Part shown: positions 21,462 to 49,712 of the stretch, piece after piece
Numbering within the stretch: the first letter of the stretch is position 1
How the letters are laid out: the number at the start of each line of letters is the position of its first letter
Assembly (NCBI RefSeq): GCF_040451425.1
Contig: NZ_CP144374.1
Span: forward strand, 558,001 to 622,000
DNA from: Thermodesulfovibrio sp. 3462-1
GTDB taxonomy: Bacteria > Nitrospirota > Thermodesulfovibrionia > Thermodesulfovibrionales > Thermodesulfovibrionaceae
Length of the DNA stretch: 64,000 bases
Direction: 5' to 3'
Notes under the pieces: model-generated
Seen by the model: only the letters and a program-made list of their open reading frames with translations
Told to the model about the DNA's origin: nothing
Databases searched by the model: none
Program-made: the position numbers and the translations under genes

Positions 21462-24062
21462 CCACTTGGTATTACCTCTTCGATAAATCCCTCTTGCCAT
21501 GTTTTTCCCCTCCTTTTTTTCTAATTCTTTAATGAAAGACTTAATCTCAAAATTGTTTCAATTCCTCATAGGTAGGCTCGCAAACATCTAAAAAGTACAA
21601 TTGGGTAGTTTATTCTATTATTAGTTTCAATTCCTCATAGGTAGGCTCGCAAACGAAGCACAGCTGAGGTGCTATCTCAACTGCTGGGATTGTTTCAATT
21701 CCTCATAGGTAGGCTCGCAAACGAGGGAAAGGTTCTTAACCAGGAAGAGCTGGAGGCGTTTCAATTCCTCATAGGTAGGCTCGCAATATGCAAAAAATTG
21801 TCTCTTCCAACCCACCGATGGAGTTTCAATTCCTCATAGGTAGGCTCGCAATTTGTATCTAATGGTAGTGGTAATCGCATTGTGAATGGTTTCAATTCCT
21901 CATAGGTAGGCTCGCAATCATAGCACTTCATCACCACCTCACTATAGGAATTGACCGTTTCAATTCCTCATAGGTAGGCTCGCAAACGAAGCACAGCTGA
22001 GGTGCTATCTCAACTGCTGGGATTGTTTCAATTCCTCATAGGTAGGCTCGCAATTCATGAGTGATGAGCTAAATAACAATAGCAACGCCGTGTTTCAATT
22101 CCTCATAGGTAGGCTCGCAATTCCTCCTGGATTTTTTCTTTCCCCCCGAGTCTTTCTGTGTTTCAATTCCTCATAGGTAGGCTCGCAAACAAAAATGAAA
22201 TTTGAAGAAATCATTAAAAATTTAATGTTTCAATTCCTCATAGGTAGGCTCGCAAACTCGTCGAATGGCCTGGGGGAGACTGGAACTGTGCAAGTAGTTT
22301 CAATTCCTCATAGGTAGGCTCGCAATTCAACAAATGAGTAGTAGATGGAAAAATTGCTTTACCAGTTTCAATTCCTCATAGGTAGGCTCGCAATAGGAGA
22401 TATGAGAGAAGGGGGAACGTATTTATCTCCACGTTTCAATTCCTCATAGGTAGGCTCGCAATCCAGCCTCCAAAGGAGGCTTTGGGAGGGTCAGTTGTAG
22501 TTTCAATTCCTCATAGGTAGGCTCGCAATCGGCCAATTTTATATGGCCCTCCAAAAATTAAAAGCTGAGTTTCAATTCCTCATAGGTAGGCTCGCAAACA
22601 TATAAACTCCATTCTTTAAAGCACTTGCCCAATCACGTTTCAATTCCTCATAGGTAGGCTCGCAAATTGAGCCAAGAAACAGGTATTCCAATCCCTGACC
22701 TGAGTTTCAATTCCTCATAGGTAGGCTCGCAAACCTGGGAAGAACTTCACCCTCGCTATTTACGGGGGTAGTTTCAATTCCTCATAGGTAGGCTCGCAAA
22801 TTTATTGAGTTCAGTATTTCCTGTATGTCTGAAGTATGTTTCAATTCCTCATAGGTAGGCTCGCAAATCATCTTTTATTTCTTTTCCTAAAGCTTCCAAT
22901 TCTTGTTTCAATTCCTCATAGGTAGGCTCGCAATGCTGTTGACTCTTTAGCTTTTTCAAATTCTGTATTATCCTGTTTCAATTCCTCATAGGTAGGCTCG
23001 CAATGTTGGAATATCCGTGCTTTCACGGATATCCCATTTAGTTTCAATTCCTCATAGGTAGGCTCGCAATGAAATGTAATAATTCCCCGCCAAAGGCGGA
23101 GATGTAATGTTTCAATTCCTCATAGGTAGGCTCGCAAACACTCCTGCTCCTGATCCTGTGGCTTAGTAGAAACTGGTTTCAATTCCTCATAGGTAGGCTC
23201 GCAAACTTGTTTGATGGGGTCTGCTGGACCCCAAACAACTGCGTTTCAATTCCTCATAGGTAGGCTCGCAAACTTGGACAGCTATCCTGTGTGTTTATTC
23301 TCATAGGTACGTTTCAATTCCTCATAGGTAGGCTCGCAAACTCAACAGAGATGAGGTATGGATAGGCTTGGTAGTCTCGGTTTCAATTCCTCATAGGTAG
23401 GCTCGCAAACGACAAATGATGTATGCTGTATTTTCCTATCTTTTCTGCGTTTCAATTCCTCATAGGTAGGCTCGCAATAACAGTAGTTCCATCATCAATA
23501 GCATCCTGAAGTCCATGTTTCAATTCCTCATAGGTAGGCTCGCAAACGGCTTAAAAAGGCTAAAGATGCCAATGCCTGGGTAAGTTTCAATTCCTCATAG
23601 GTAGGCTCGCAAACAAAGTAGAAAGCGACAAGTGTATTAAATGAGTTAGGGTTTCAATTCCTCATAGGTAGGCTCGCAAACCAACTATCTTGAAACAAAA
23701 ATCCCTGTTCAATCTCCAGTTTCAATTCCTCATAGGTAGGCTCGCAAACCCATGATATCCACTACTTTATCCGAGGCAAATTTTATAGTTTCAATTCCTC
23801 ATAGGTAGGCTCGCAAACTCCAGAAGTGGCATAGATTGTAGAATTAAACTGAAAATACGTTTCAATTCCTCATAGGTAGGCTCGCAAACTCCCGCCGTAA
23901 TGGCTTTTGCTACAGCTTTTGATGCCGGTTTCAATTCCTCATAGGTAGGCTCGCAAACCTCTCAGTTGAAGTGGCAGTGTGCCCTTCTGGCCAGGTTTCA
24001 ATTCCTCATAGGTAGGCTCGCAAACGGGGCTATGCCCCTATGATCCAGAGTACCCAAAGAGA

Positions 24063-24290
24063 GTTTCAATTCCTCATAGGTAGGCTCGCAATTTCCATAC
24101 ATCCCATGTTACTGAAACACCTATCCAAGTTTCAATTCCTCATAGGTAGGCTCGCAATTTCCATACATCCCATGTTACTGAAACACCTATCCAAGTTTCA
24201 ATTCCTCATAGGTAGGCTCGCAATTTCCATACATCCCATGTTACTGAAACACCTATCCAAGTTTCAATTCCTCATAGGTAGGCTCGCAAT
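24063..24290 (-). repeat. Three tandem identical repeat-spacer units
   Basis: The spacer beginning TTTCCATACATCCCATG occurs three times in a row, between repeats starting at 24063, 24129, 24195 and 24261. Slippage or unequal recombination within the array explains it more simply than three acquisitions of the same sequence. Confidence 0.95.
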
Positions 24291-26470
24291 CGTAGTCAGA
24301 ATATATCCTTTTTTGCTGAAAAATCTGTTTCAATTCCTCATAGGTAGGCTCGCAAAATAATAGGGTATTTTGACCCCACCATAAGGCATGGTAGTTTCAA
24401 TTCCTCATAGGTAGGCTCGCAACATATCCACTCCAAGATGTCTGTGATACTCGAAAAAGGTTTCAATTCCTCATAGGTAGGCTCGCAAATCAAACCCTGT
24501 ATCCTCTACAACGGCAACGGATACCCAGTTTCAATTCCTCATAGGTAGGCTCGCAAATGTACTTCTAAAGTGGCAGAAAGGACTGTTGATAAGAGTTTCA
24601 ATTCCTCATAGGTAGGCTCGCAAATGTGTTCAAAATGTTGGATACAACTCCACCAACTCCAAGTTTCAATTCCTCATAGGTAGGCTCGCAATTTCTTGCA
24701 AGCTGAACCAATTTTGGATTAGCAAACAGGTTTCAATTCCTCATAGGTAGGCTCGCAATCATAGCACTTCATCACCACCTCACTATAGGAATTGACCGTT
24801 TCAATTCCTCATAGGTAGGCTCGCAATACGTTTAGACAGCCCTCTTCCTGTATTTCCACAACTGTTTCAATTCCTCATAGGTAGGCTCGCAATATATACA
24901 ATAAGAAAAGCGGCAAATTGGCTGTCTTCTCAATAGTTTCAATTCCTCATAGGTAGGCTCGCAATGGGGGCCCTATACATAGACATAGAGGGGGGAGGCG
25001 CGTTTCAATTCCTCATAGGTAGGCTCGCAATTGGCAATATGGATGGCAGTGTCAACCGCGGCAAAAGAGGTTTCAATTCCTCATAGGTAGGCTCGCAATG
25101 TCCATAAAAGTTAGGTTTTGCTTCCCAAAAATTGGGTTTCAATTCCTCATAGGTAGGCTCGCAATTCCGCAGCTTAAAAAGGAGGTGCGAGGATGTATTG
25201 TTAGGTTTCAATTCCTCATAGGTAGGCTCGCAATTAGGGTACTCGAGAGAGCATTCCCTGAGAAACCCCGGTTTCAATTCCTCATAGGTAGGCTCGCAAT
25301 CCTCCAAATTCTAATGCATTCAACTGTTTCCGCTTTAAGTTTCAATTCCTCATAGGTAGGCTCGCAATTAATCAGACTCTAACTCGTTTAGTAGGGCATT
25401 GGTTGTTTCAATTCCTCATAGGTAGGCTCGCAATCCATCTGGGAAGACCTCTCCCGGAGGGATTTCACAAGTTTCAATTCCTCATAGGTAGGCTCGCAAT
25501 CGGTATTTGATTGCATCCGTATATGTTCCGCATACAGGGTTTCAATTCCTCATAGGTAGGCTCGCAATTTTATAAGAATGTGAAAGCAGTAGATATACTT
25601 CTGTAGTTTCAATTCCTCATAGGTAGGCTCGCAATATGTAGATGTGAATCTGAGTCAACTTACCAGCATGGGTTTCAATTCCTCATAGGTAGGCTCGCAA
25701 TCTATATAACAACACTGATAATACTACTCCTGCATGGGTTTCAATTCCTCATAGGTAGGCTCGCAATCCTGTCTTTAGAGTTACATAGTTTGTTCCCGGG
25801 GAAAGTTTCAATTCCTCATAGGTAGGCTCGCAATGGAAAATGCCCGCAACACCAACAATTTCAGGAAGCAGTTTCAATTCCTCATAGGTAGGCTCGCAAT
25901 GAAATATGCCAGTTTTTTATGACGAAGGGTCCTGGAGTTTCAATTCCTCATAGGTAGGCTCGCAATGCAATGAGATCCCTGTATTTGTTTTGACCCAGGA
26001 TTGGTTTCAATTCCTCATAGGTAGGCTCGCAATTGGCAATATGGATGGCAGTGTCAACCGCGGCAAAAGAGGTTTCAATTCCTCATAGGTAGGCTCGCAA
26101 TTTCTCTAGGAGTAGTTATATTACTTGCAACCCTCCCAGTTTCAATTCCTCATAGGTAGGCTCGCAATGGTTATTACAGTTAGAGGAAACTGGATTGTAT
26201 ATTTGTTTCAATTCCTCATAGGTAGGCTCGCAATAAAGAATCTGGAGAAAAAAGCGGGTACGAGATACTGGTTTCAATTCCTCATAGGTAGGCTCGCAAT
26301 TTACCTCCCTTTGGCTTATTGTCGGTAAACAGATCAGGTTTCAATTCCTCATAGGTAGGCTCGCAATGTCTCAAATAACTGGAAAGCACCTTATCCATCA
26401 GATGTTTCAATTCCTCATAGGTAGGCTCGCAATGCTATTAACTGTAGTAGCTTTTCAGTCTGTTCTGCTT

Positions 26471-27432
26471 GTTTCAATCCCTCATAGGTAGGCTCGCAAT
26501 CAGGGGAGCTTACCCCTGAACAGAAAGAAAAACTCCGTTTCAATCCCTCATAGGTAGGCTCGCAATTCCGTGCTAATTCTTTACATCTCCCGAGAAGTAG
26601 AGTGTTTCAATCCCTCATAGGTAGGCTCGCAATTTGTTAATGGAAGGAATTCCAAGACTTCCGTACTTTCGTTTCAATCCCTCATAGGTAGGCTCGCAAT
26701 GTCACCGTCGGGGGTAAAGCTGATCGACAGCGTTGGTTTCAATCCCTCATAGGTAGGCTCGCAATAAATTAAAGGGGGTAAAGATGAAAATTAGAGAATT
26801 GAGTTTCAATCCCTCATAGGTAGGCTCGCAATAAAGTAAGAAGTGGACTGAAGAGGATGTCAGGAAGAGTTTCAATCCCTCATAGGTAGGCTCGCAATAT
26901 ACAGTGTCCGTCGGGGCAAACAGTATCTGGTCCAGGTTTCAATCCCTCATAGGTAGGCTCGCAATCTGCTTGGTTTTACGGGGCTTGTAAAGTTTGTAAA
27001 AGTTTCAATCCCTCATAGGTAGGCTCGCAATCCAGAAGTGATTACCTGAGAAAACTTATCTTTCCATAGTTTCAATCCCTCATAGGTAGGCTCGCAATCT
27101 TTTTTTATTCTAATTTTATTTTAATTTATTTTGTAGTTTCAATCCCTCATAGGTAGGCTCGCAATAGCAGCCAGAGGATTTTCTCCGGGTAGCTCAGAAT
27201 AGTTTCAATCCCTCATAGGTAGGCTCGCAATTGTCTTTCACAAGTAGTGATTCCCCAGGCTTAGCCGTGTTTCAATCCCTCATAGGTAGGCTCGCAATTT
27301 TTATGCCGTGGCCACCAAGGCCATGGCAACATATTGTTTCAATCCCTCATAGGTAGGCTCGCAATCAACTTAAAGAACTTCCAGCACCACCAACTAAACC
27401 AGGTTTCAATCCCTCATAGGTAGGCTCGCAAT
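26471..27432 (-). repeat. Block of 15 variant CRISPR repeats
   Basis: Fifteen consecutive repeats (first at 26471, last at 27403) carry GTTTCAATCCC instead of GTTTCAATTCC. All repeats counted on either side have the T form. Spacers in the block are of normal length and unique. Confidence 0.95.
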
Positions 27433-29409
27433 TTAGTGAGTTGGGAAGGGTGAAGCAACAGAATGGGCGTTTCAATTCCTCATAGGTAGGCTCGCAATAA
27501 GATAAAAACAGTCAGGGTCAACCTGCCTGTTGAAATGTTTCAATTCCTCATAGGTAGGCTCGCAATGAATTATTCTTCTTGCTCCAGACTGGCAGTTATC
27601 TCTATGTTTCAATTCCTCATAGGTAGGCTCGCAATACAGCTGAGCAAGTAGTTAAAATTATTGGGCTTCCAGGTTTCAATTCCTCATAGGTAGGCTCGCA
27701 ATAAGCTATGGGAACTGCTCTGTGCTTTGCTATTTTTCATAGTTTCAATTCCTCATAGGTAGGCTCGCAATAAAAATTCCATAAATCTTGTAGTTCTGTT
27801 TCTTCGAGTTTCAATTCCTCATAGGTAGGCTCGCAATGAATACAAAACCTTACCTACCATTTTACACAGGAAAGTTTCAATTCCTCATAGGTAGGCTCGC
27901 AATAAGGATATTTTGTTAAAGTGGCAAAAGAGCATGTTGAGTTTCAATTCCTCATAGGTAGGCTCGCAATTAAATAACTGATTATCGTGTTCCTCATGAG
28001 GAAAAAGTTTCAATTCCTCATAGGTAGGCTCGCAATCTTGCTCCTGATCCTGGGGCTGAGTAGAAATAGTTAGTTTCAATTCCTCATAGGTAGGCTCGCA
28101 ATTCCAAGCTAAAAAGCTTCATAGTTTCAGGCAAAGAGAGTTTCAATTCCTCATAGGTAGGCTCGCAATCAGCAAGTTTTTGTAAAACCAGAGCCTGACC
28201 TCTACTGTTTCAATTCCTCATAGGTAGGCTCGCAATGAATACAAAACCTTACCTACCATTTTACACAGGAAAGTTTCAATTCCTCATAGGTAGGCTCGCA
28301 ATTTTTAGACGAATTAATTCATGAGCTTATTGAAGAAATGTTTCAATTCCTCATAGGTAGGCTCGCAATTTTACCATAGGGTGGGAACGCTTCTATGGGG
28401 ACAAAGGTTTCAATTCCTCATAGGTAGGCTCGCAATTTGGGATATTATTCAAATGGCAAAAGAATTTACTTGTGTTTCAATTCCTCATAGGTAGGCTCGC
28501 AATTCAAAAAGTCAGAATTGCCGCAGAGAACAGACTAAGAGGTTTCAATTCCTCATAGGTAGGCTCGCAATACATTTCAAATCCCGCTTTTGCGATTGAG
28601 TTCGCCAGTTTCAATTCCTCATAGGTAGGCTCGCAATTCATTTTCCTGATGTTGATAACAAGACATTAGATGCATGTTTCAATTCCTCATAGGTAGGCTC
28701 GCAATTTCTTATACAAATATTTAAAAATTAAACTTGAAAAAAGTTTCAATTCCTCATAGGTAGGCTCGCAATAAGATTGAGAATGTTGGTAATGTAAATT
28801 TGAATGATTAGTTTCAATTCCTCATAGGTAGGCTCGCAATTCCCTACAAATCTTTCTCAAAAAATACAGAAAAGAGTTTCAATTCCTCATAGGTAGGCTC
28901 GCAATTGGTAATTGGTATGCATTGCCTCGCAAGATTGAGGAGTTTCAATTCCTCATAGGTAGGCTCGCAATTTTGTCATTGAAAATATTTTTTTTATCTC
29001 TATTGGGTTTCAATTCCTCATAGGTAGGCTCGCAATAATTTTAACAAAATGGCAAAGGCAGCAATTAGTTCGGTTTCAATTCCTCATAGGTAGGCTCGCA
29101 ATAGTTAATATTTAGTAGCAACAGATGTTAAAAATGAGTGTTTCAATTCCTCATAGGTAGGCTCGCAATCTTGTCAAGCAATAAATCATCATCAATGTAT
29201 TTTTTGGTTTCAATTCCTCATAGGTAGGCTCGCAATAGTTAATATTTAGTAGCAACAGATGTTAAAAATGAGTGTTTCAATTCCTCATAGGTAGGCTCGC
29301 AATAGGTAGACCCCGAAAAACTATCAGAAATTTCTGAGAAGGGTTTCAATTCCTCATAGGTAGGCTCGCAATGAGGAGAAACTTTGGAGCTTATACTTTA
29401 CCGTGTCTA

Positions 29410-29839
29410 GTTTCAATTCCTCATAGGTAGGCTCGCAATGCATAGAAGGTGTCAAAGTCCGATAGCAAAACTCTTGTTTCAATTCCTCATAGGTAGGCTC
29501 GCAATTGGCAGGGAGGAGGTGGTTATATTGAGAAAGATTCTTGTTTCAATTCCTCATAGGTAGGCTCGCAATATTATCAAATAGCAGAGGTTGACCTCAG
29601 AAATTATAGTTTCAATTCCTCATAGGTAGGCTCGCAATTTATCCCCCTTTGGCTTAAGGGCAGTAAACAGATCAGGTTTCAATTCCTCATAGGTAGGCTC
29701 GCAATCCAAAATCACCTTTGCCATAGTCTTCCTCCTTTTTTTGTTTCAATTCCTCATAGGTAGGCTCGCAATTTGTATTCCTCATGATTCATAAATACAG
29801 CTTTAGCCTGTTTCAATTCCTCATAGGTAGGCTCGCAAT
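29410..29839 (-). repeat. Duplicated array segment, copy 1 (six spacers)
   Basis: Seven repeats and six spacers (first spacer begins GCATAGAAGGTGTC, last ends CTTTAGCCT in plus-strand reading) are identical to 30750-31179. The offset is exactly 1340 bp, or 20 units. Confidence 0.95.
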
Positions 29840-30749
29840 AATGATGCACTGGCAGTTCCTCCGGGTTTTGTCTTAGTGTTTCAATTCCTCATAGGTAGGC
29901 TCGCAATTGAGACTACTGCCAACGGCATAAATTTCTTTTATGAGTTTCAATTCCTCATAGGTAGGCTCGCAATCCCTTCAACATCAACAATTTCAGCTTT
30001 CTGAAGCAGGTTTCAATTCCTCATAGGTAGGCTCGCAATTCAAGCCACATTTCTGTTTCAATTTTTCCGTATTGTCGTTTCAATTCCTCATAGGTAGGCT
30101 CGCAATCTACTTCAAACGAAAAACTTGAAAATAGCTATTTTCTGCGGTTTCAATTCCTCATAGGTAGGCTCGCAATTGAACGATGCTACTTTTTACCCCA
30201 AGCTCACTTATGTTGTGTTTCAATTCCTCATAGGTAGGCTCGCAATTATGCACAGGATAATAAGATGGCACAAGGAGAATTCGTTTCAATTCCTCATAGG
30301 TAGGCTCGCAATAAATTGATAAAGTTAATTCAATTTCTACGCCTCCAGTTTCAATTCCTCATAGGTAGGCTCGCAATTCTTGATGAGGCCAAGGAAAGAC
30401 TAAAGAGAAAATGTTTCAATTCCTCATAGGTAGGCTCGCAATTCTTCCTCAAAGAGTACAGAAAAGACAACGACTTATTTAGTTTCAATTCCTCATAGGT
30501 AGGCTCGCAATATATCTACAGTTACACCGCCAATGTCCTTATATACAAAACGTTTCAATTCCTCATAGGTAGGCTCGCAATTGGGAGGAGCTACCAGCAT
30601 CATTGCTCTTTTCCATTGTTTCAATTCCTCATAGGTAGGCTCGCAATTACTTTCATAAGATATACGGGGTCACAGAGAAGTTGTTTCAATTCCTCATAGG
30701 TAGGCTCGCAATACCCTGAGCGCGCGGAAGAATACGCAGAGTACAGGGT

Positions 30750-31179
30750 GTTTCAATTCCTCATAGGTAGGCTCGCAATGCATAGAAGGTGTCAAAGTCC
30801 GATAGCAAAACTCTTGTTTCAATTCCTCATAGGTAGGCTCGCAATTGGCAGGGAGGAGGTGGTTATATTGAGAAAGATTCTTGTTTCAATTCCTCATAGG
30901 TAGGCTCGCAATATTATCAAATAGCAGAGGTTGACCTCAGAAATTATAGTTTCAATTCCTCATAGGTAGGCTCGCAATTTATCCCCCTTTGGCTTAAGGG
31001 CAGTAAACAGATCAGGTTTCAATTCCTCATAGGTAGGCTCGCAATCCAAAATCACCTTTGCCATAGTCTTCCTCCTTTTTTTGTTTCAATTCCTCATAGG
31101 TAGGCTCGCAATTTGTATTCCTCATGATTCATAAATACAGCTTTAGCCTGTTTCAATTCCTCATAGGTAGGCTCGCAAT
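30750..31179 (-). repeat. Duplicated array segment, copy 2 (six spacers)
   Basis: Second copy of the block at 29410-29839. Spacers on both outer sides differ from those around the first copy, so the duplication covers only these six spacers. Confidence 0.95.
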
Positions 31180-34100
31180 TTAGAAAAAAAGATAGAGGGT
31201 ATTGACAAAGAGGAAGAGTTTCAATTCCTCATAGGTAGGCTCGCAATGTGGAGAGCATCATCCAGAATAGATTATCTATGTATTTGTTTCAATTCCTCAT
31301 AGGTAGGCTCGCAATGAAAAAGCTCGCAGGGACATGGGAAGGCGAGTTTTTGTTTCAATTCCTCATAGGTAGGCTCGCAATAAATTGAGCAGGGCATTAA
31401 AAAGTGCACTGTCATTGAGTTTCAATTCCTCATAGGTAGGCTCGCAATCAACAAAAATGTATATACTGTCAGAAAGTGGATATCCGTTTCAATTCCTCAT
31501 AGGTAGGCTCGCAATGTTTACAAAAAGTTGCTTACAGCAGAAAAGAAAAAGAAGTTTCAATTCCTCATAGGTAGGCTCGCAATCTGAATACATCCGAGAG
31601 CTTGCGGAGAGTATCAGGGAAGTTTCAATTCCTCATAGGTAGGCTCGCAATTTGTCGGTTCTATATAAAACCAGCAGGGGGAGAACAGTTTCAATTCCTC
31701 ATAGGTAGGCTCGCAATATTGTTTTTGTGAATTATGGGAGGGTTGCAAGTAATAGTTTCAATTCCTCATAGGTAGGCTCGCAATGATACTCTGTATAGTC
31801 TCCCTGGTATGTCTGAAAAGTGTTTCAATTCCTCATAGGTAGGCTCGCAATTGTATCCATTTATCAAGAAGTATGACTGCTGCTACTGTTTCAATTCCTC
31901 ATAGGTAGGCTCGCAATTAGGGTGGAGGCAAAATACAGTGATATTCGACGAAGAGTTTCAATTCCTCATAGGTAGGCTCGCAATGGATGGGAAGTTGGAT
32001 TTGCAAACTCTATACATGACGGTTTCAATTCCTCATAGGTAGGCTCGCAATACACCAGTGGAAAGAGATTTTCCATGGGGGAAAAGAGTTTCAATTCCTC
32101 ATAGGTAGGCTCGCAATGAACTAAACTACAGGCAACAGTAGCAGGAAATGGCTTGTTTCAATTCCTCATAGGTAGGCTCGCAATGGTATTAATTTTGAAA
32201 TCTGGTTTTTTATTTGGTTCTGGTTTCAATTCCTCATAGGTAGGCTCGCAATTCAGTTTTTGTCTCAGGGTTTGTATATAGTAGATAATAGTTTCAATTC
32301 CTCATAGGTAGGCTCGCAATGACTCTTTGTGATGGAGTTACCAAGGCATATCGTAAGTTTCAATTCCTCATAGGTAGGCTCGCAATTTGGAAACGCGGTA
32401 TATGGTGTGTATGTGTACGAAAGTTTCAATTCCTCATAGGTAGGCTCGCAATTCAGTCGGTTTCTTTAAAGTTGGGGGTGATGTAGGAAAGTTTCAATTC
32501 CTCATAGGTAGGCTCGCAATTAATTTCTGCCATGCTGGCACCCCCTATTAATTTTTTGTTTCAATTCCTCATAGGTAGGCTCGCAATAAGAATTATTGTT
32601 ATGTAATCGATGACCCCGAGGAGGTTTCAATTCCTCATAGGTAGGCTCGCAATTCTTTTCCAAAAAAAGAAATTGCTTTTGATTTCCCTAGTTTCAATTC
32701 CTCATAGGTAGGCTCGCAATATTTCCCTGATAAAGTAAAAAAGAGAGGAGGTGATAAGTTTCAATTCCTCATAGGTAGGCTCGCAATAATTTCCCCCTCT
32801 TAACCCAATCCCTGTGGATTGGAGTTTCAATTCCTCATAGGTAGGCTCGCAATTCTGAAGACCCAATCAGAAAGATAAATAGCTTTTACTTGTTTCAATT
32901 CCTCATAGGTAGGCTCGCAATCAGGATGCGTGAGATATACCAGATATCAGTTCCACTGTTTCAATTCCTCATAGGTAGGCTCGCAATCTAGGGATAAAAG
33001 GAAATATCCTTTCAATCGTAATAGGTTTCAATTCCTCATAGGTAGGCTCGCAATTTCTATCAGTGACGGATATTTTGTGATTCTTCTGTCGTTTCAATTC
33101 CTCATAGGTAGGCTCGCAATGTATTCCTTGAAGCCATGGAGGTAAACTTCCTTGTGGGTTTCAATTCCTCATAGGTAGGCTCGCAATCCTGTTGAAAATG
33201 AACTCAAAGCACTAAGAGTAACTCGTTTCAATTCCTCATAGGTAGGCTCGCAATCGTGTAAAGTCGAGTTTACAAGGAGTTGCTTACAGCGTTTCAATTC
33301 CTCATAGGTAGGCTCGCAATTAAAGTGGAAAATTACAAAAATCATAGACCTTCAAAGGTTTCAATTCCTCATAGGTAGGCTCGCAATTTTATGAATTTGG
33401 AATCTCCTTTGAGGAGAAACACCCGTTTCAATTCCTCATAGGTAGGCTCGCAATCTTTAGGGTTATCCTTGTTTTCAACTACATAGTTAGTTTCAATTCC
33501 TCATAGGTAGGCTCGCAATTTCACAATCTTGATTTCTGCCCCTACCGTTATATCCTGTTTCAATTCCTCATAGGTAGGCTCGCAATGAGTCAATGTATTC
33601 TTTTACAATTGTTTTTGCGTCTTCGTTTCAATTCCTCATAGGTAGGCTCGCAATGTTTGCAGGCGAATATGGAATGACTTTATTGTAGTTAGTTTCAATT
33701 CCTCATAGGTAGGCTCGCAATAGATTGATCAGGGCATCAGAGGATGCCCTGTTATTGAGTTTCAATTCCTCATAGGTAGGCTCGCAATGGAAATAGAGAA
33801 CGGTTGAGGAATCCGCTATTTGTCTGTTTCAATTCCTCATAGGTAGGCTCGCAATATAAACTGGGATGAAATACGAGAGATTGTAGGTATAGGTTTCAAT
33901 TCCTCATAGGTAGGCTCGCAATCTACAGTAGTAATCAAAAAAATTGATCTTCATGAAGTTTCAATTCCTCATAGGTAGGCTCGCAATTCAATCGGAGAAA
34001 CAGGCTTGTTAAAATTTAGAGATAGTTTCAATTCCTCATAGGTAGGCTCGCAATAAAATACAAGAAATTGCTAAAGATTTTGGAATTAGTCTGTTTCAAT

Positions 34101-34722
34101 TCCTCATAGGTAGGCTCGCAATTCGTCTTCTGCCGTTAAACATTCAAAAATTTGATAGGTTTCAATTCCTCATAGGTAGGCTCGCAATCGCTCCGTGAAT
34201 GGTTGCACACTATAAAGAATATGTAGTTTCAATTCCTCATAGGTAGGCTCGCAATTTTGGTGATCTTGATGCTATAAAAAAACTACAACAGCGTTTCAAT
34301 TCCTCATAGGTAGGCTCGCAATACGAAAGAACTAGAGGAAGAGTTGAGCTATTATATAGTTTCAATTCCTCATAGGTAGGCTCGCAATATCTACTTCAGG
34401 TGGCAGACTTTTCAGTCCTGGGTCGTTTCAATTCCTCATAGGTAGGCTCGCAATCTTTGAGGAGTTTAATAATGCTTGCTCCCCCAACTTGTTTCAATTC
34501 CTCATAGGTAGGCTCGCAATTTTTTTTGTCAATTTTGTCTTTATCAAAAAAGTAAATGGTTTCAATTCCTCATAGGTAGGCTCGCAATAAAAAATTTTGA
34601 TATAATTAAAGTAGAATAAAAAAAGTTTCAATTCCTCATAGGTAGGCTCGCAATATATTCTCTCCTACTTGCTCAATATGCATTCTCAAAATGTTTCAAT
34701 TCCTCATAGGTAGGCTCGCAAT

Positions 34723-34863
34723 CCATTTTTTATGCGAAAAATCAAAACATAATTTTCAAAGAACAATAGAATTATTTTATTTTTTATCATAAGTTCCCTT
34801 AAAAAATCAACTTTTCCTTCGTCGCTGTCCCAGCATTTTTGCATTATCAGGGATAGACGAATC
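34723..34863 (-). promoter_or_regulatory. CRISPR leader
   Basis: The 141 bp between the cas2 stop and the first repeat are strongly AT-rich and should hold the array promoter and the signals for spacer insertion. The half near the array reads, on the minus strand, with runs such as GATAAAAAATAAAATAA and TTGAAAATTATG; I cannot choose a -10 box with confidence. The half near cas2 holds a long inverted repeat, listed separately. Confidence 0.7.
34818..34861. repeat. Interrupted inverted repeat in the leader
   Basis: TTCGTC plus GTCCC on one side pair with GGGA plus GACGAA on the other across about 18 bases that include GCATTTTTGCATTAT. Related imperfect palindromes with a CAAAAA centre are known in leaders of thermophile arrays. 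It could bind Cas1-Cas2 or a host factor, or act as the terminator of the cas operon. Confidence 0.5.
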
Positions 34864-35194
34864 TCAGAGTATCACCTCTTCCCCTCCCTTCTCTATGCCC
34901 ATTATCTCCCGCCTTGTATACCAGCCTGTCCTGAAGGTATAGATAATGATGGAGTCCTCCTCTTCATTGATTATCTTCCTTAACTCACTCTTGAGCTTCT
35001 CAAGCCTTGCCACTGTTATCTCTCCCTCAAATACAGAATTCTGCACCCAGTGTAGATACTTTCTGCAAATCTTCAAAACGAGCAACAACTGGAAAATGCT
35101 CATCAACAAGACAGTCGTGTAGATACTTTCTGCAAATCTTCAAAACCTTCTGAACCCTTTCTTCTTTGACATCATAAACAAGTATTACATTCAT
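34864..35194 (-). pseudogene. cas2: cas2 interrupted by a spacer-like insertion
   Basis: Cas2 forms the structural core of the Cas1-Cas2 spacer integrase. From ATG 35194 the protein starts correctly (MNVILVYDVKEERVQKVLK, with the conserved Asp8) but after KYLH reads into a 67-bp insertion, shifts frame and stops after 55 codons. Without the insertion it would be a normal 87-residue Cas2 ending GWYTRREIMGIEKGGEEVIL. An ATG inside the insert restores the frame for residues 18-87, but that product lacks strand 1 and the Asp. It follows cas1 directly and no second cas2 is in the window. Confidence 0.93.
35050..35146. repeat. Perfect 30-bp direct repeats flanking a 37-bp insert inside cas2
   Basis: The 30 bases at 35050-35079 (starting GTGTAGATACTTTC, ending CTTCAAAAC) recur without a mismatch at 35117-35146; bases just outside differ on both sides. 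Between them, 35080-35116 is 37 bp of unique sequence. Removing one repeat and the 37 bp restores cas2 exactly. Repeat length and insert length equal those of the neighbouring CRISPR array. Confidence 0.97.
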
Positions 35195-35195
35195 T

Positions 35196-36188
35196 CTACC
35201 ATGAGGTTATAAAAGGTCTGTATTCTTCATCCCCTATGAGATGCTTCTCTATCTTGTAGAGTTCAAGCCTTATCAATTGTCTGTAAGACACATGTCTGCC
35301 GAGCCCTCTGTGCTCAAAAGTTGCCTTGAGCCGCTCATCCATCTCTCTTACAAAAACCTCTCTCCCCTTCTCATTCAAAACAATTCCGTCAAGCTTCTGT
35401 TCAAAATGCTGTGGTTTAATGATTCCTTTATTTACCAGTGTAAATATCACCCTGTCTGCAATGATCGGCTTAAAGACCTCTGCTACATCAAGATTAAGTG
35501 AAAACCTCCTGAAATTCGTGGTATGCAAGAAACCAATCCTGGGGTCAAGATGGGTATGATATATTTCGCTAAGACAGACTGTATAGAGAATAGAATTTGC
35601 AAAACTAATAAGGGCATTTAGCCGATTTTTTGGTGGTCTCCTTGTTCTACCTTCAAATATAAAATGCTCATTATCCAGAATCCTGTCAAAGGCATAGTAG
35701 TATTGCTCCCTTATGTTTCCCTCAATCGCCATCAATCCCTCTGTGTCTTTACAGGATTGTAGCGATTGAGAAATTGATTCTATTTTCTGAATATACTTTT
35801 CCAGTTGTTTTCCTCTATTTTTATAATAAGCAAGCACCTTTTTTATGTTCTCCACAGCACCCTCTACAAATTTCCTTGCAAGGATGAGCCGTTTTGATGG
35901 GTCAAGATAATGTTCAGCCTGCTTTAGTATCATATATCCAGAATTCAGATGCTGTCTTGGATAGTATGAGCCCACATAGTAGCCGTAATAGTTGAAAAAG
36001 TGCATTATAATTTCGCTTTCTGTGAGGAATTCAAGAAGTCTCTTGTTTATTGAAACTTCACCAAAGATAAAAAGTTCTGATGTGTTTTCTACAGGGATGT
36101 ATTTTTTGCCTTCTTCAGTTTCAAAATAGAGTGTGTTTCCTTTTCTTTTTAGTTCGCCATCTGAAAATATGTAAATCGTCCTTTTCAT
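35196..36188 (-). CDS. cas1: CRISPR integrase Cas1 (type I-B)
   Basis: Metal-dependent endonuclease that inserts spacers together with Cas2. From ATG 36188 (MKRTIYIFSDGELKRKGNTL) it is 330 residues; the frame open to 36215 is rejected because ATG 36188 overlaps the cas4 stop as ATGA. The metal ligands are expected in MAIEGNIREQYYYAFD (Glu), LHTTNFRRFSL (His) and NLDVAEVFKPIIAD (Asp/Glu); all are present. Complete and apparently functional, unlike the adjacent cas2. Confidence 0.95.
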   Translation of the reverse strand: MKRTIYIFSDGELKRKGNTLYFETEEGKKYIPVENTSELFIFGEVSINKRLLEFLTESEIIMHFFNYYGYYVGSYYPRQHLNSGYMILKQAEHYLDPSKRLILARKFVEGAVENIKKVLAYYKNRGKQLEKYIQKIESISQSLQSCKDTEGLMAIEGNIREQYYYAFDRILDNEHFIFEGRTRRPPKNRLNALISFANSILYTVCLSEIYHTHLDPRIGFLHTTNFRRFSLNLDVAEVFKPIIADRVIFTLVNKGIIKPQHFEQKLDGIVLNEKGREVFVREMDERLKATFEHRGLGRHVSYRQLIRLELYKIEKHLIGDEEYRPFITSW

Positions 36189-36688
36189 GACCAGCAAAAC
36201 TCCTGATAACCACATTTTGAACAGAATTTTGTTTTTTGTGCTTGCGGAGGTATCTCCATTTTAATTATTTCTTTAATCTGGGCTTGCGCTTCAATGAGCT
36301 CGGCTTTAAGCTCTTTTGTAAGGGTAACAATGATTTTTTTCTTTTCTTTTGGAAAGAGAAGTTGCCCAGTAGCTTCAATACCGAGTTGTTTTAGCCTCCA
36401 CAGATAAAAGGCAAGTTGCATCCTTGCACTTTTCTCAAAACGAGAGCTTTTCTTAACCTCACCAATCACCACATTTTCACCTTCTGTTTTTAACAAATCT
36501 ATAACAATGTTTTCAAGATGAATCTCTTTTCTTTCCCTTTTGTATGCTTCTTCTGACAGTAGCCTGCCAATCTCAATAAATGGATTTTCCTGCCATGGTG
36601 TAAGCTGCCTTGACATAAGCCAGACCTCCCGGGGGCAGATGTAATAATACCAGATAAGGGTTCCAGTGGGGTGCATTGAATTCACCAT
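36185..36688 (-). CDS. cas4: Cas4 exonuclease
   Basis: A RecB-like 4Fe-4S nuclease that trims prespacers and helps choose the PAM. The 167 residues hold the cluster cysteines C18 (YICPREVW) and C156, C159, C165 (FCSKCGYQEFC). The nuclease core is in IVIDLLKTEGENVVIGEVKKSS, with Asp and the E-x-K pair. ATG 36688 overlaps the end of cas3; a second ATG at 36676 (MHPTGTLIWYYY) is equally possible. Confidence 0.93.
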   Translation of the reverse strand: MVNSMHPTGTLIWYYYICPREVWLMSRQLTPWQENPFIEIGRLLSEEAYKRERKEIHLENIVIDLLKTEGENVVIGEVKKSSRFEKSARMQLAFYLWRLKQLGIEATGQLLFPKEKKKIIVTLTKELKAELIEAQAQIKEIIKMEIPPQAQKTKFCSKCGYQEFCWS

Positions 36689-39030
36689 AACAATAGCCCT
36701 GCTTTGGTTTTAAATCCTGTTTCATGGTCATAATAATCTTCAAGCTGATTTTGAGAGATGTAATAAGTATCCATAATTTTTGGAGGTAGATTTTCAGTAT
36801 TTGCTGGAATAGAAATGATATAATCGTAAAAATCTTTGCGAATTTGCAAAAATTCTTTTTTCCGTTCAAAAAGGTTTTTAATCATTTTAATTCTTTCAAA
36901 TTCCTTCCAAACTTTTACTGCTCTTTCGTCGTATTCAATAAATACATCTATTTCTGGATAGTCTTCCTCTATCAGTTTAAAATCAGAAATTGACAACTCA
37001 TCCGTCTCCTGTTTATCATATCTCAATCTGGAAACAGCCTCTAAAATTTCTGAGGATTCTGTCTGATTCAGTTTTTCAGTAATTTGTTGGAAATAGGTAT
37101 CAAGTAGCTGGAAAAGCTGTTTTTCATTAAAAAATTGCCTTGCAGATAGAAGTTTCTCTGTAATATCAATTAAAACAGGATCATAAATATAGGATGCATA
37201 GCGTCTGCCATGTTTGTCCGTAAGAGTGAATACTTTAACTGTGCCTTTTTTATTACCAGCATTTCTGTTACACCTTCCAGCAGACTGGATTATACTGTCA
37301 AGAGGAGCGATATCCCTGTAAACTATGTCAAAATCTATGTCTACTCCAGCCTCCACGAGTTGAGTGGACACAACTAATTTGTATTTTCCATTTCTAATTT
37401 CCTCAATTCTTTTTTGCCTTTCTAATGGAACAATATGGGTGCTGAGAAATGTTTTTGATATAGAATTGATTTTAAGAAGTGAATAGAATTTCTTGGCAGA
37501 TGCAATTGTATTAAAGATAAATAGTTTTGAATTCTCTGGATTTTCATCAATTTGATTGACAATTTGTTCAATTTTGACTGGATTTTCAATTTCCGAGTAT
37601 AACTCTATTCTATTAAGGTTATCATAATATTTAGAGGGCTCTGTTATGCTAAATATTTCATTCTTATCAAATATCAGCGGTTCGGTAGCAGTCATAAGAA
37701 TGACATATGAATTAAATTTCTCTGCAAGTAACATCAGGATTGTTTTGATAAGTTTCCAATACTTAATAGGTATAGATTGTATCTCATCAAGTATTATAAT
37801 TGAATTGATAAAGCGGTGGAATTTTCGTAAACTACTGTTTTTATTCGAAAACAATGTGTGAAAGAGTTGAACGAAAGTTGTTATTATTATTTCCGAGTTC
37901 CATCCCTCTATCAATAATTCCCCTTCTTGAGTTTCATATTCCTTTTCTTCAGTTTTGTAAAAAATCTCTGCAAGATGATGGTGTTTGAGCATGATATTTG
38001 ATGTGGGATTTGTTCCGTTTTCTTCAATTACTTTTTCAATGACCTGAGCGTTTTGCTCAATTATGCTTAGAAAAGGTAGAGAGTAAATTATTCTTGGATT
38101 GACTTTCAATTTTCTGAGCTCGCTTTTTAGTTTCAATGCAAAGGAAAGACCGGTAAGGGTCTTTCCAAGTCCTGTGGGTAAGTTGATAGAATAAAATCTT
38201 TTATTCAGATCAATATCTTTTTTCATTACCTCATGGTAAGCTTTAGTTCTTAGTTCATTAATTATGGACGGGATGGGTTTTACTTTTATTAAGTAGTTCT
38301 TTACCCAATCTTTGTCATCATAAGTCTTTCTTATCGGAATATTGGAATTTTCAAGAACTACGTCGGTTTTGTCTGCATCAAGAAGAAGCGAATAAATAAG
38401 ATTTAAAGTGAGATAAGGTGTCAAATCTTTGTTTTTCCTTATTAATTTTTTGTAAAACTTTAATTCTCTCTCAAATTCGTTAAACCATGTATTAATCAAT
38501 AGCTTTGTTAGCAAAACGGGAAGTCCTTTTTGATGCAATGTATTGCACAATGTGGAAAAAGAATGATTATTAATGCTTTCAAGCTGTGTTTGTAGTATTT
38601 GAAGATTTTTTTCATCAAATAGTGATGTTTCATCCATTACATCTATCAGGTCATCGTGATGCCTCCTTACCGCAATGTAAGCAAAAAGGGGCAAGAATAC
38701 ATTTTCATTACATGTTTTTTGACAAAATTCTTTTACGATAAAGTAGGTACATATAGCAGAAAAGAGACTGTGCGATGAATATTCAGACTTTAATTTTTGC
38801 TTAGCTGACTCTTCTGCAAAAAGATAATCCTGAAAATATCTGGTTGACTTACCTATATCGTGAGTAAGACCAATTATTCGTGCAACCTCTTTAAGCTCAT
38901 TCTGAATAGCTAACGGTTTCTCTGATAAGAAATATTCCATCAAATCAGCTACATTGATGAGATGGTCTTCCAGTAATTTATCTGGATGGGAATACAAATT
39001 AGAAGAAGACGATATTTTCCCCATTTTCAA
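36682..39030 (-). CDS. cas3: Cas3 helicase-nuclease with N-terminal HD domain
   Basis: The effector nuclease of type I systems: it unwinds and degrades DNA found by Cascade. Residues 1-240 form an HD nuclease domain (HPDKLLEDH, GLTHDIGKS with H57-D58, RRHHDD). Then come the SF2 helicase parts: Walker A NLPTGLGKTLTG near 284, Walker B ILDEIQSIP near 415, MTATEP, VSTQLVEAGVDIDFD and the QSAGRCNRN arginine-finger motif. 782 residues, or 780 from the second ATG. Overlaps cas5 by about 30 bp. Confidence 0.95.
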   Translation of the reverse strand: MKMGKISSSSNLYSHPDKLLEDHLINVADLMEYFLSEKPLAIQNELKEVARIIGLTHDIGKSTRYFQDYLFAEESAKQKLKSEYSSHSLFSAICTYFIVKEFCQKTCNENVFLPLFAYIAVRRHHDDLIDVMDETSLFDEKNLQILQTQLESINNHSFSTLCNTLHQKGLPVLLTKLLINTWFNEFERELKFYKKLIRKNKDLTPYLTLNLIYSLLLDADKTDVVLENSNIPIRKTYDDKDWVKNYLIKVKPIPSIINELRTKAYHEVMKKDIDLNKRFYSINLPTGLGKTLTGLSFALKLKSELRKLKVNPRIIYSLPFLSIIEQNAQVIEKVIEENGTNPTSNIMLKHHHLAEIFYKTEEKEYETQEGELLIEGWNSEIIITTFVQLFHTLFSNKNSSLRKFHRFINSIIILDEIQSIPIKYWKLIKTILMLLAEKFNSYVILMTATEPLIFDKNEIFSITEPSKYYDNLNRIELYSEIENPVKIEQIVNQIDENPENSKLFIFNTIASAKKFYSLLKINSISKTFLSTHIVPLERQKRIEEIRNGKYKLVVSTQLVEAGVDIDFDIVYRDIAPLDSIIQSAGRCNRNAGNKKGTVKVFTLTDKHGRRYASYIYDPVLIDITEKLLSARQFFNEKQLFQLLDTYFQQITEKLNQTESSEILEAVSRLRYDKQETDELSISDFKLIEEDYPEIDVFIEYDERAVKVWKEFERIKMIKNLFERKKEFLQIRKDFYDYIISIPANTENLPPKIMDTYYISQNQLEDYYDHETGFKTKAGLLLW

Positions 39031-39718
39031 GATAGTAAAATTTTTTCAAATATGCTGTAATTGTCCTCCCTTCTGGCTCATAAATAACATCACCGTAGTT
39101 CTCAACGATTCTTTCTGGTGTCATCCTTATAGGAATTTTTTCCTTGAAGTATTTTCTCCCCTCCTGTAATTCTATGCCCTTGTTTATGAGCATGCTTACA
39201 GGTACTACAGTAGAAATCTCGGTCCTGGGTTTTTCCATTTCTCTTGTATCATAAACTCCAACAAAACAAAAATCAGCAAGAAGTTCACTTAAACCTAACG
39301 AAACTGTATAAAATGATTGATGGGATTGAACCATATTGATGAGTTTGTCAAAAGTATCTTTATCTTGGTGCCAGACATAGACTCTGTATTTTGGTGTCTT
39401 AACAAATTCAGTTAATATCTGAGTGCGTGGCTCATGATTTTTCTTTTTAATAAGAAGAAGGTATTTGTTGTCTTTAGTGTTTATTAGATTTATTCCCATT
39501 CGCACTTTTTTTATAGGGTTTATTATCCTTAAGGCGATTTTGCAATTGTCATATCCAAAAATATTTAAATATTCATTTTTTGGAGCGCCATAAATCGCAC
39601 CTAATATGCCCGCAACTGTTGGAGGTGGTGGAAAAGAAAAGGTAAGAGGTGATGTAGTGGTGTAATATTTTCGGAAATGAGCAAAATCACCGTATAAATC
39701 AAACACAAGCACTTTCAT
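38999..39718 (-). CDS. cas5b: Cas5 of the type I-B Cascade
   Basis: Binds the 5' handle of the crRNA in Cascade. The opening VLVFDLYGDFAHFRKYYTT and SPLTFSFPPPPTVAGILGAIYG with its proline-rich loop is the standard Cas5 signature; 239 residues. The gene lies 10 bp after cas7 and overlaps cas3. The residues of Cas5d that process crRNA in type I-C are not evident. Confidence 0.93.
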   Translation of the reverse strand: MKVLVFDLYGDFAHFRKYYTTTSPLTFSFPPPPTVAGILGAIYGAPKNEYLNIFGYDNCKIALRIINPIKKVRMGINLINTKDNKYLLLIKKKNHEPRTQILTEFVKTPKYRVYVWHQDKDTFDKLINMVQSHQSFYTVSLGLSELLADFCFVGVYDTREMEKPRTEISTVVPVSMLINKGIELQEGRKYFKEKIPIRMTPERIVENYGDVIYEPEGRTITAYLKKFYYLENGENIVFF

Positions 39719-39728
39719 AGTTAAAACC

Positions 39729-40640
39729 CTAAAAAGTGAGCTCCTCTACAGTGAGATCACTTAATGCACTTTTTAAATCAATTTCCTCGCCATTTCTGAT
39801 AAGCCTGACTCTATCATCAACTTTTACTCTGACTTTTTCTATTTTGTCTTTATATTTAGCAAGAGTATCAATAAGCTTGGTTACATCTATTTTCACTTCT
39901 GATATATCTCTTATAGCTTCATCAGGGATCTCTGATTTTAAAGATATAAGTTTATCAAGTTCTCCAATGTAAAAATTTAGTCCTTCTTTATAAACAATCT
40001 GTAAAAGTATTCTTGGCATCTGTCCAAACTTTGAGCCTGAGATAAGATTTTTCGTTCCATTCCACATTCCCTCAAGCATTAAATCTATATCTTCTTCAGT
40101 AAGAGGAATATTTTGAGTTGTAGCAGCCTTTTCATTTACGACTCCATAGAAAACAATTAAAGAGTATGGAAGAATATACCGTTCTGTAAAGGTGCCTTGT
40201 TGTCTGCCAGTTGCAGAAGGCATAACTGTAGTCCCTTTGATATAAGTTAAGTCAACTTTATGTAAAGACCTTCCATATTTGAACTGAACCGGACCTGTAA
40301 GCGTAATTGTTCTATTTTCTACAGCAGTGGTGCAGCCAAAAAGACGAATATCAATACATCTTTCAATTATGGAACTATCGGCAAAGTCGTTCAATCTTTC
40401 CTCTTTTGTTTTGAGACTTCCATCTTCTTTCCTGATCTCACGAATAAAAATTTCCTGACCTTTGTAATCGTATAAATAATCTCTAATAGTTCTTTTCAAT
40501 CTCACATCAGTAACAATGGTTGCTCCTGTTTCCTCATCAATCCTCGGCTTGTTTTCATCAACAGGGTCTCCGTTTGGATTGGCATCTTTCACATCATAGA
40601 GAAACAAAATTTCTGAACGATTTTTTACTAATTCTGGCAT
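39729..40640 (-). CDS. cas7b: Cas7 backbone subunit of type I-B (Csh2 family)
   Basis: Six or so copies line the crRNA in Cascade. The opening SEILFLYDVKDANPNGDPVDENKPRIDEE is the DevR/Csh2 signature (key: D-x-NPNGDP-x4-PRID), 303 residues in all; GRSLHK and FTERYILPYSLI follow. It starts 10 bp after the type III-D RAMP gene, so the III-D and I-B parts are one transcription unit. A strong AGGAGG-like GGAGG precedes the ATG. Confidence 0.95.
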   Translation of the reverse strand: MPELVKNRSEILFLYDVKDANPNGDPVDENKPRIDEETGATIVTDVRLKRTIRDYLYDYKGQEIFIREIRKEDGSLKTKEERLNDFADSSIIERCIDIRLFGCTTAVENRTITLTGPVQFKYGRSLHKVDLTYIKGTTVMPSATGRQQGTFTERYILPYSLIVFYGVVNEKAATTQNIPLTEEDIDLMLEGMWNGTKNLISGSKFGQMPRILLQIVYKEGLNFYIGELDKLISLKSEIPDEAIRDISEVKIDVTKLIDTLAKYKDKIEKVRVKVDDRVRLIRNGEEIDLKSALSDLTVEELTF

Positions 40641-42753: not shown

Positions 42754-42886
42754 ACTCAAAGCCTCCTTTCAAATAAAGCTTCCATTTTTTAAGTTTGTCT
42801 TTTGATACAAATTCTTTTATGAACTCAAGGGCATCTTCTCGTAAAACATTACATTTCGCCTTTGTTAAATCCTGTAAATCGGCAAT
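42704..42886 (-). other. Protein-like frame without a start codon
   Basis: After TAG 42887-42889 a 60-codon frame reads IADLQDLTKAKCNVLRED then ALEFIKEFVSKDKLKKWKLY and stops at 42704, inside the following RAMP gene. It looks like a helical protein but has no ATG, GTG or TTG at its start; ATT is the first codon. It may be a frameshifted tail of Csx19, a small gene with a rare start, or debris. Confidence 0.3.
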
Positions 42887-43397
42887 CTACATAGGAAGCC
42901 TGATAGGTCTCAGGATGAAAATCTATGTAGTTGCGGGTCTTTAAGAAGAGGCGATTCTTCCTGTTGTCCACAGGAATCTCATCAAAAGGTAAAATGAGTT
43001 CTGTTCCCCTTTCTTCAAAGAGCCTTATCCAGCCATCAGATAGCTTCTCTCTATCGGTCCCCCACAAAACCTGATTTGCATCTACAACATAGGTTTCTTC
43101 TCCTTCATCATCAATCCTTAATCTACCTCTCAAACCAACATCTAATCGCCATATAAGGAGCTCTTTTTGTTCATTGAATAGCCTCAATCTCTGGATGTAT
43201 TTTTCTTCAATAGATTCATTATTAAAAAAGAGCAAGGCATTGTTTTTAATCCTTCCAATCAGCACCTTATAATCAAGATAGGCTATAACAAAGCCATCTG
43301 AATTAAAAACTGAAAGGGCGGATTTTATGTTGTCTATGTTTATTGTTTCAGCCTTTGATTTTATCCTTTTAAGCTCCAGCCCATTTGCATTTAACAT
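42849..43397 (-). CDS. csx19: Csx19-like protein of type III-D (TIGR03984)
   Basis: A 182-residue protein of the Csx19 family, found with Csx10 in III-D loci; role unknown, probably a small accessory or Cas11-like subunit. The pattern VIAYLDYKVLIGRI, LRLFNEQKELLIWR and LWGTDREKLSDGWIRLFEERG agrees with the family. Overlaps the upstream RAMP gene by 7 bp. A second protein-like frame continues past its stop (see 42704-42886). Confidence 0.75.
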   Translation of the reverse strand: MLNANGLELKRIKSKAETINIDNIKSALSVFNSDGFVIAYLDYKVLIGRIKNNALLFFNNESIEEKYIQRLRLFNEQKELLIWRLDVGLRGRLRIDDEGEETYVVDANQVLWGTDREKLSDGWIRLFEERGTELILPFDEIPVDNRKNRLFLKTRNYIDFHPETYQASYVDCRFTGFNKGEM

Positions 43398-48431: not shown

Positions 48432-49712
48432 TTATTTGATAAAGTCTTTTATCCTATTGATCAGGACTGATTCTTTTAGGTCATCCTCACCAAGAACTAA
48501 GATGTTTTCTTTGCCTTCTGTATCAATCTCAAGCTCTTCCTGAAGTTCATTCCTTTGAGATTTATTAAGCCTTGTAATCAGCACAGCCCTTGCCTCCTTG
48601 CCACCAATCTGTCTTGTTCTTAAGAATATCTCAAAACCCTTGCTTTTACAAATATGCCTCTGCGAGGCTGTAGTACAAGAAATTCCTATCAGTTGATAAC
48701 CTTTCAAAAGGATTATATCAAGCTCAAACTTCTGATGCTGGCTGGACCATTGTTTCTTTTTGATTTCCCAGTTACGGTCAATTTCTATGTTTTGCCCTGT
48801 CAGGTTATTTTTCAGAACATCAAATACATATAGTTCGAGCCATTTTCCATCAAGAAACTTCACCGCTTGTTTTAAACAATCATTTGATTTAGGCTCTCTG
48901 AAAGAGCCATCATTATTGAATAATATATAATCCTCTGGCATTGATCTTATAATCTCCAGGAAACTTCCCTCTGCCCTGAAATTTTTCAGATCGTCTTTTA
49001 AGTTTCTTATTTTTTCTACCAGTTTGTCTTTTTCTTTAGGATTTTTACTGGTAAAAAGGTCTCTTTGATATTTGTTAAACCAATCTTTAAGTTTATCTGC
49101 CTCAATAAGTTCCTTAAACTTATTAACGGCGTTTTTGAATAAATCAATTTCCTCCGAGGGCTTGTTTTTTCTTTCAAACTCATGAAGACTTATCAATTCC
49201 TGAATGCTTAGCCCTATTTCATTTCTAAGGTCACCCGTAATCCTGCCATTTATATCATCTACTATCTGGAATGTCCTGGCATCAAGATATGAGAAAGAGG
49301 CTTTTATATTATTTTCTCTGGCTTTTTCCTCAAGCCACCTGTAAACATGCGTTCCCATTACCTTTGTTCCTCCTGTATAGTTGAGATGGACAGAGAAAGT
49401 TGAATTGAGTAATGGAAGAAGTCTTGCATCAAGGTTTCTTCTGATCTGGCTTGCATCACTGATGTTAGAAAGATGAATAAATTCAAAGGTAAGATTGTTT
49501 TGATGATGAGAGTTAAGAAGCTCTTTAAGGGTGTCACAATAATTTTTTGTTCCTCTCTGATTATTGGTTTCTTCTGAATAGATTAAAAAAATATTTTTGA
49601 GATTTTTATTTTGGGCAAGAAAATATTCAGCCACGACAAAATTGGGCAATGGATTAGTGCCAGTTAATAAAATTAAGTTACAAAATTGGTAATTCATGTT
49701 TTTCATAAACAA
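48432..49712 (-). CDS. CARF-domain nuclease of the Can2/Card1 (DUF1887) type
   Basis: A 426-residue protein. The N-terminal 170 residues are a CARF domain (NYTGGTKVMGTHVYRWLEEKA is the ligand-loop motif, GGTK key), followed by a helical linker and a PD-(D/E)XK nuclease domain (WLELYVFDVL, FELDIILLKGYQLIGISCTT near 329-348). The Asp is present, but the usual E-x-K reads S-C-T; lysines in ICKSKGFE on the next helix might take over. In Can2/Card1, cyclic tetra-adenylate opens nucleic-acid cleavage. A start at 49697 (MNYQFCNLILL) is also possible. Confidence 0.8.
   Translation of the reverse strand: MFMKNMNYQFCNLILLTGTNPLPNFVVAEYFLAQNKNLKNIFLIYSEETNNQRGTKNYCDTLKELLNSHHQNNLTFEFIHLSNISDASQIRRNLDARLLPLLNSTFSVHLNYTGGTKVMGTHVYRWLEEKARENNIKASFSYLDARTFQIVDDINGRITGDLRNEIGLSIQELISLHEFERKNKPSEEIDLFKNAVNKFKELIEADKLKDWFNKYQRDLFTSKNPKEKDKLVEKIRNLKDDLKNFRAEGSFLEIIRSMPEDYILFNNDGSFREPKSNDCLKQAVKFLDGKWLELYVFDVLKNNLTGQNIEIDRNWEIKKKQWSSQHQKFELDIILLKGYQLIGISCTTASQRHICKSKGFEIFLRTRQIGGKEARAVLITRLNKSQRNELQEELEIDTEGKENILVLGEDDLKESVLINRIKDFIK

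Follow-up and report, generated by a model that had tools for sequence, protein, structure and literature searches.

The type I-B CRISPR-Cas locus of Thermodesulfovibrio sp. 3462-1 carries a cas2 gene interrupted by 67 extra bp, which raises the question of how the extra DNA arrived and whether the locus can still acquire spacers. The best explanation, which we consider very probable, is that the type I-B Cas1-Cas2 carried out a full-site spacer integration at the wrong place, namely into its own cas2, by which acquisition was probably lost. The window in the following refers to the whole stretch of 64,000 bp that was analysed; the whole genome, in one contig, measures 1,818,996 bp.

Organization of the type I-B locus

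The gene order on the minus strand is cas1, then cas2, then the leader of a 197-repeat array. Assignment to type I-B is based on Cas1b, Cas5b, Cas7b and Cas8b, all of which were matched. The features surrounding cas2 are as follows.

21555..34722, minus strand: type I-B CRISPR array, 197 repeats of 30 nt and 196 spacers, leader end at 34722, adjoining cas2
34723..34863, minus strand: AT-rich leader, ending in ...AAAAAATGG ahead of the first repeat, recognised by position and likeness to the leaders of relatives
35196..36215, minus strand: cas1, type I-B, intact (TIGR03641, 481.3 bits), the only Cas1 match of the genome
36185..36688, minus strand: cas4, intact (profile matches)
36682..40640, minus strand: cas3, cas5b and cas7b (profile matches)
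49678..51378, minus strand: cas8b (TIGR02556/Csh1, profile match)

All 197 genomic copies of the I-B repeat sit in this array, with spacer lengths of 35-42 nt and 37 nt as the commonest length (75 of 196). Toward the leader-far end, 28 repeats finish in CGCAAA and one in CGCAAC, and a block of 15 repeats (26471-27432) has CCC instead of TCC. The distinct spacers number 183 of the 196, so some units are duplicated. In two genomes of the same taxonomic order (loci L011 and L013), the leader and repeat sequences are the same as those of L042 and L048.

Other modules were observed in the same region, all on the minus strand. Between cas7b and cas8b lies a type III-D-like module (40651-48412) with TIGR03986, Csx19, Csx7, Csx10-like and Cas10-like proteins, and a 426-aa protein with Card1-like CARF and endonuclease domains is encoded at 48432-49712. 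A match to Csa5 of type I-A (TIGR01878, 112.9 bits; 51894-52661) adjoins cas8b within the I-B locus. At 61695-63399, Cmr1 (TIGR01894) of a type III-B module has a C-terminal MntA-like nucleotidyltransferase domain at about residues 360-438, and the gene that follows encodes a HepT-like, NTase-binding partner of 133 aa, so that Cmr1 is fused to half of a toxin-antitoxin-like pair.

Anatomy of the insertion in cas2

The 67 bp consist of a second, exact copy of 30 bp of cas2 (codons 17-26) and of 37 new bp between the two copies. The lengths of 30 and 37 are exact, since the bases flanking both copies differ on either side. The parts of the interrupted gene are listed below.

35027..35194, minus strand: frame that begins at the original cas2 ATG and yields 55 aa, the Cas2 part being residues 1-26 (23.0 bits with Pfam Cas2, slightly below the 23.8 cut-off)
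35117..35146, minus strand: first of the two 30-bp copies; its left end resembles a leader-repeat junction (AGAAG/GTTTTGAAG in cas2 sense)
35080..35116, minus strand: 37-bp insert, spacer-sized, which contains a new ATG
35050..35079, minus strand: second of the two 30-bp copies (cas2 codons 17-26)
34864..35103, minus strand: frame from the insert ATG (35103-35101), 79 aa, consisting of 8 insert codons and Cas2 from residue 17 to the end

By its length of 67 bp, the insertion shifts the cas2 frame by one, and the original ATG consequently yields the 55-aa product that ends its Cas2 portion at residue 26. The structure is beyond chance, as 194 of the 195 exact direct repeats found in the 64-kb window (at least 18 nt, period 40-110) were located in the CRISPR array and the cas2 pair was the sole other one. 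The two 30-bp copies are identical to each other, and the event may on that account be recent. No Rfam family matched at gathering score across 34700-36300.

The state before insertion was evident from relatives. In the DNA alignment, 10 of 10 aligned relatives, i.e. six named contigs and four whole-genome loci, all of other species, were without exactly the 67 columns; two further near loci, L041 and L044, lay outside the DNA alignment but had full-length Cas2. The 80 Cas1 loci from named records comprised 74 with full-length Cas2, five with no match and one with a partial match cut by the locus end, and no repeat pair of this kind overlapped any of the 74 full-length cas2 genes. Other exact repeat pairs were present in 18 loci among 114 sequences (window included, some overlapping or redundant), and by eye all of these were CRISPR-repeat-like.

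Two loci deviated in their own ways. L015, a more distant relative within the genus, has an apparent one-base frameshift in cas2 helix 1 (about 2493-2725) with no such duplication there; this appears to be either a sequencing error or a second broken cas2, and the locus was excluded from the 9-sequence reference set. In Tepidanaerobacter sp. GT38 (L051:4900-6200), there is no cas2 between cas1 and the array.

Signature of a probable spacer integration

In both of its lengths the insertion equals one unit of the adjacent array: the target duplication is as long as the home repeat (30 bp exactly, against 30 nt in 197 of 197 repeats) and the insert is as long as a spacer, at the commonest length of 37 nt. 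Repeat-length duplication around a spacer-length insert is the signature of full-site spacer integration, as Cas1-Cas2 in an array duplicates the repeat around the new spacer, according to PMC4081107. The array of the type III-A locus in the same genome has repeats of about 36 nt, hence the 30-nt duplication points to the I-B enzyme.

The target site was compared with leader-repeat junctions by a matrix made from 14 of them (13 of relatives and the home junction), and it was scored against 794,600 positions of a genome sample with six sets of positions in two orientations, chosen after the site had been seen. In cas2 sense, the site ranked in the top 0.05% when leader 3 + first 8 + last 8 were scored. 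The first 8 and the full set of 35 positions each gave 0.14%, the repeat without leader gave 0.22%, and leader 3 + first 8 gave 0.32%. The last 8 bases by themselves were unremarkable (3.9%), so that five of the six sets fell in the top 0.05-0.32%, with the best value about ten times weaker in effect because the sets were tried after seeing the site. In the opposite orientation the ranks were 0.5-19%. Both strands of the duplicated stretch have G at their 5′ end; off-target sites of Streptococcus thermophilus Cas1-Cas2 resemble leader-repeat junctions and prefer G, as described in PMC6895254.

Plain identity between the 30 bp and the home repeat was rejected as evidence, as it extends to 13/30 positions, a level met by 5% of nearby 30-mers. 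This poor likeness, together with the unremarkable last 8 bases and the choice of scoring sets after the fact, tells against integration, and the likeness of 13/30 at the same time favours an error of replication or repair, i.e. slippage or a template switch that copied the 37 bp from elsewhere, with the match to 30 + 37 being coincidental. Local duplications with filler DNA do arise by repair. The 37 bp, however, have no second occurrence in the genome with 3 or fewer mismatches, and as they share 9/37 positions with either neighbouring 37 bp, they are not a tandem copy that later decayed. Each of the two lengths equals that seen in the adjacent array, and no other such structure was found in the window or in 416 kb of the 1.82-Mb genome (20 stretches and the type III-A locus), where the only other repeats were tandem repeats with a period that is a multiple of three and the type III-A array. 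Taken on these points, an error of replication or repair is a very unlikely origin. The lack of another event in the 416-kb sample counts against integration as well.

A small transposable element would share the general anatomy of transposition, an insertion with a target duplication. A target duplication of 30 bp is far longer than is usual for transposons. In addition, 37 bp is too small for an element, and a search that allowed up to 3 mismatches, run on the own genome and on 15 others from the genus, returned only the site itself, i.e. a single genomic copy and none in the others, which makes a transposon exceedingly improbable.

A protospacer was not found for the 37 bp, which is a further point against integration. 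In blastn searches against phages and plasmids (E up to 10) only weak partial matches were obtained, the best with E-values of 2 and 5; three exact 20-mers of the insert had 0 matches each in viral contigs; and the best ungapped match to the 196 array spacers covered 19 positions. As a control, the whole array was compared with phages by megablast and gave no match, and the lack of a protospacer for the 37 bp thus says little. From the lengths and the site we infer that Cas1-Cas2 made the insertion.

The reading frame opened by the insert

The original prediction was that an ATG within the 37-bp insert opens a frame into the rest of cas2, and this ORF is indeed present on the minus strand. The ORF as listed (34864-35109) begins at a TTG at 35109, in frame with the ATG at 35103-35101, and corresponds to an 81-aa form, and one K at the junction had been counted twice. 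The correct junction of the 79-aa product is MSIFQLLL, from the 8 insert codons, then VLKICRKYLHW; the Cas2 sequence resumes at residue 17, as the duplicated 30 bp correspond to codons 17-26 and are in frame. From there to the end, the product aligns throughout with the intact type I-B Cas2 of relatives, e.g. L043, but it is without strand 1, Asp8 and half of helix 1.

The original prediction gave weight to the new start and asked whether the shortened protein still supports Cas1. That the start gives a working short Cas2 with which adaptation continues draws on several observations: the frame is open, it retains 71 residues of Cas2, among them helix 2 and every later strand, and Cas2 profiles are matched (the 81-aa form scores 71.5 bits with Pfam CRISPR_Cas2; the 79-aa form scores 37 bits with TIGR01573, above the cut-off of 24.5). 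Moreover, Cas2 is structural and not catalytic in the Escherichia coli integrase, according to PMC10011333, so the loss of Asp8 alone need not matter.

The start codon itself was no more than expected by chance. When the 75 array spacers of 37 nt were placed in both orientations, 12 of the 150 readings would contain an in-frame ATG with no stop before the junction, and 41 of 150 would contain some start codon (ATG, GTG or TTG); a new ATG is a common by-product of a spacer-sized insert. No Shine-Dalgarno match was found upstream of the insert ATG. In the same operon cas7 has TAAGGAGG five bases upstream of its start, and most other inspected cas starts are without a good Shine-Dalgarno, for which reason its absence is by itself a weak point. 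The upstream frame has its stop 74 nt downstream of the new ATG, which is thus not positioned for stop-start coupling. In the predicted mRNA fold, the AUG is within an 8-bp stem. Fold energy around the AUG was discarded as evidence, being no more stable than that of shuffles (z -0.23), and only the position of the AUG in the stem was considered. On these grounds the new ATG is presumably little used.

The absence of strand 1, which contains the conserved VYD, and of Asp8 had been proposed for the ATG product, and it was confirmed in the alignment and in the structural model. Residues I4, V6, Y7 and D8 are invariant across the 32 intact Cas2 proteins that were used for structure alignments (chosen among 45 of the 74 full-length Cas2), which argues against a working short form. 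Structure prediction of the shortened protein with Cas1 had been suggested as a check; the 79-aa product was modelled by itself. Its AlphaFold2 model has no beta-1 and places the new N-terminus in helix 1. The alignments behind the two models were nearly the same, and mean pLDDT was 73.9 for the product against 85.9 for the intact Cas2 of L043, and Foldseek returned 0 solved structures at E≤0.001 for the product against 36 for intact Cas2. Judged by this model, the 79-aa product, if made, would probably not work. Taken together, the chance supply of the ATG, the missing Shine-Dalgarno, the AUG in a stem and the missing beta-1 leave the new start with little weight, and continued adaptation by a short Cas2 is highly improbable.

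Other cas2 and cas1 genes in the genome

A second cas2 elsewhere, named in the original prediction as the finding that would speak against stopped adaptation, was looked for. Above the family cut-off, the genome has just one more Cas2-like gene, which belongs to the type III-A locus and is truncated; the adaptation genes of that locus (L037:9203-9982) are decayed. The Cas2-like gene encodes 74 aa, follows Cas2 for ~51 residues and then continues into an unrelated 23-residue tail; in three relatives the protein is 91-93 aa long. The neighbouring gene encodes a 170-aa remnant with a match in the modules of relatives. Pfam and NCBIfam gave no match for this remnant, and from its motif it may be read as Cas1-like. 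Its N-terminal stretch reads as a second Cas2 start, which suggests a deletion. The genome also gave a Cas2 match below the cut-off (L005; E 0.023), interrupted by one stop, which was taken as chance and set aside.

An intact second cas2 was thus not found in the genome, and cas1 of the I-B locus is the single Cas1 match. With the I-B cas2 frameshifted and the second Cas2 truncated, spacer acquisition is probably off, in line with the earlier suspicion that adaptation had stopped. The interference genes that were checked, cas3, cas5b, cas7b and cas8b, match their families and are intact (no cas6 of this system was found), and the 196 stored spacers are probably still usable. It follows that the leader-end spacers would mark the time when adaptation stopped, as had been proposed, unless the population holds intact cells.

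Proposed course of the event

By spacer integration, a prespacer of 37 bp on Cas1-Cas2 would have been joined to cas2 at a distance of 328 bp from the array, with one 3′ end going to the side of the site that resembles a leader and the other 3′ end to the opposite strand, 30 bp away. Gap repair would then have duplicated the 30 bp, as happens with a repeat in the array, and the added 67 bp would have shifted the cas2 frame. Because the gene that was hit codes for a subunit of the two-part integrase, this would have been one of the last integrations made in this lineage once the existing Cas2 had been diluted.

Non-canonical spacer integration was reportedly described by Nivala, Shipman and Church in 2018, with natural cases in Yersinia pestis and Sulfolobus islandicus. 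Off-target spacer integration (“neo-CRISPR”) is a known phenomenon, cited in PMC9456107, PMC11788318, PMC11687729, PMC7642515 and PMC11394691. The cas2 insertion is alike in being a spacer-sized insert outside the array, but here the system is of type I-B, the target is a protein-coding gene, and this gene is the cas2 of the integrase itself, so that the event disables its maker. The off-target sites of S. thermophilus Cas1-Cas2 were obtained with type II-A in vitro and were likely half-site products according to the authors (PMC6895254), in contrast to the completed genomic event seen here. Ectopic spacer acquisition, as presented in PMC7999890 and PMC5338259, similarly involves integration away from the leader end, but takes place in a true CRISPR array and not in a coding gene. 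Over-expressed or purified Cas1-Cas2 was used for off-target integration in other papers, e.g. in PMC6895254. A literature search, with most subscription papers outside its coverage, found no report of spacer integration into cas2, nor of a completed natural event that struck a gene of the integrase itself.

Implications

The insertion could also be thought of as a reversible switch, in which replication slippage across the direct 30-bp repeats, 67 bp apart, would precisely remove the 67 bp, and cells within a population would alternate between adaptation, with Cas2 intact, and frozen memory. This is unlikely; if true, self-hits on the leader-repeat-like cas2 site would act as a built-in brake on acquisition. 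Reversion is testable, given the two identical 30-bp copies. The insertion also orders events in the locus, as the spacers of the array were gained either before the insertion or by cells with an intact cas2. As a concrete natural case, the locus indicates that a CRISPR system may lose adaptation by its own activity and keep its old memory.
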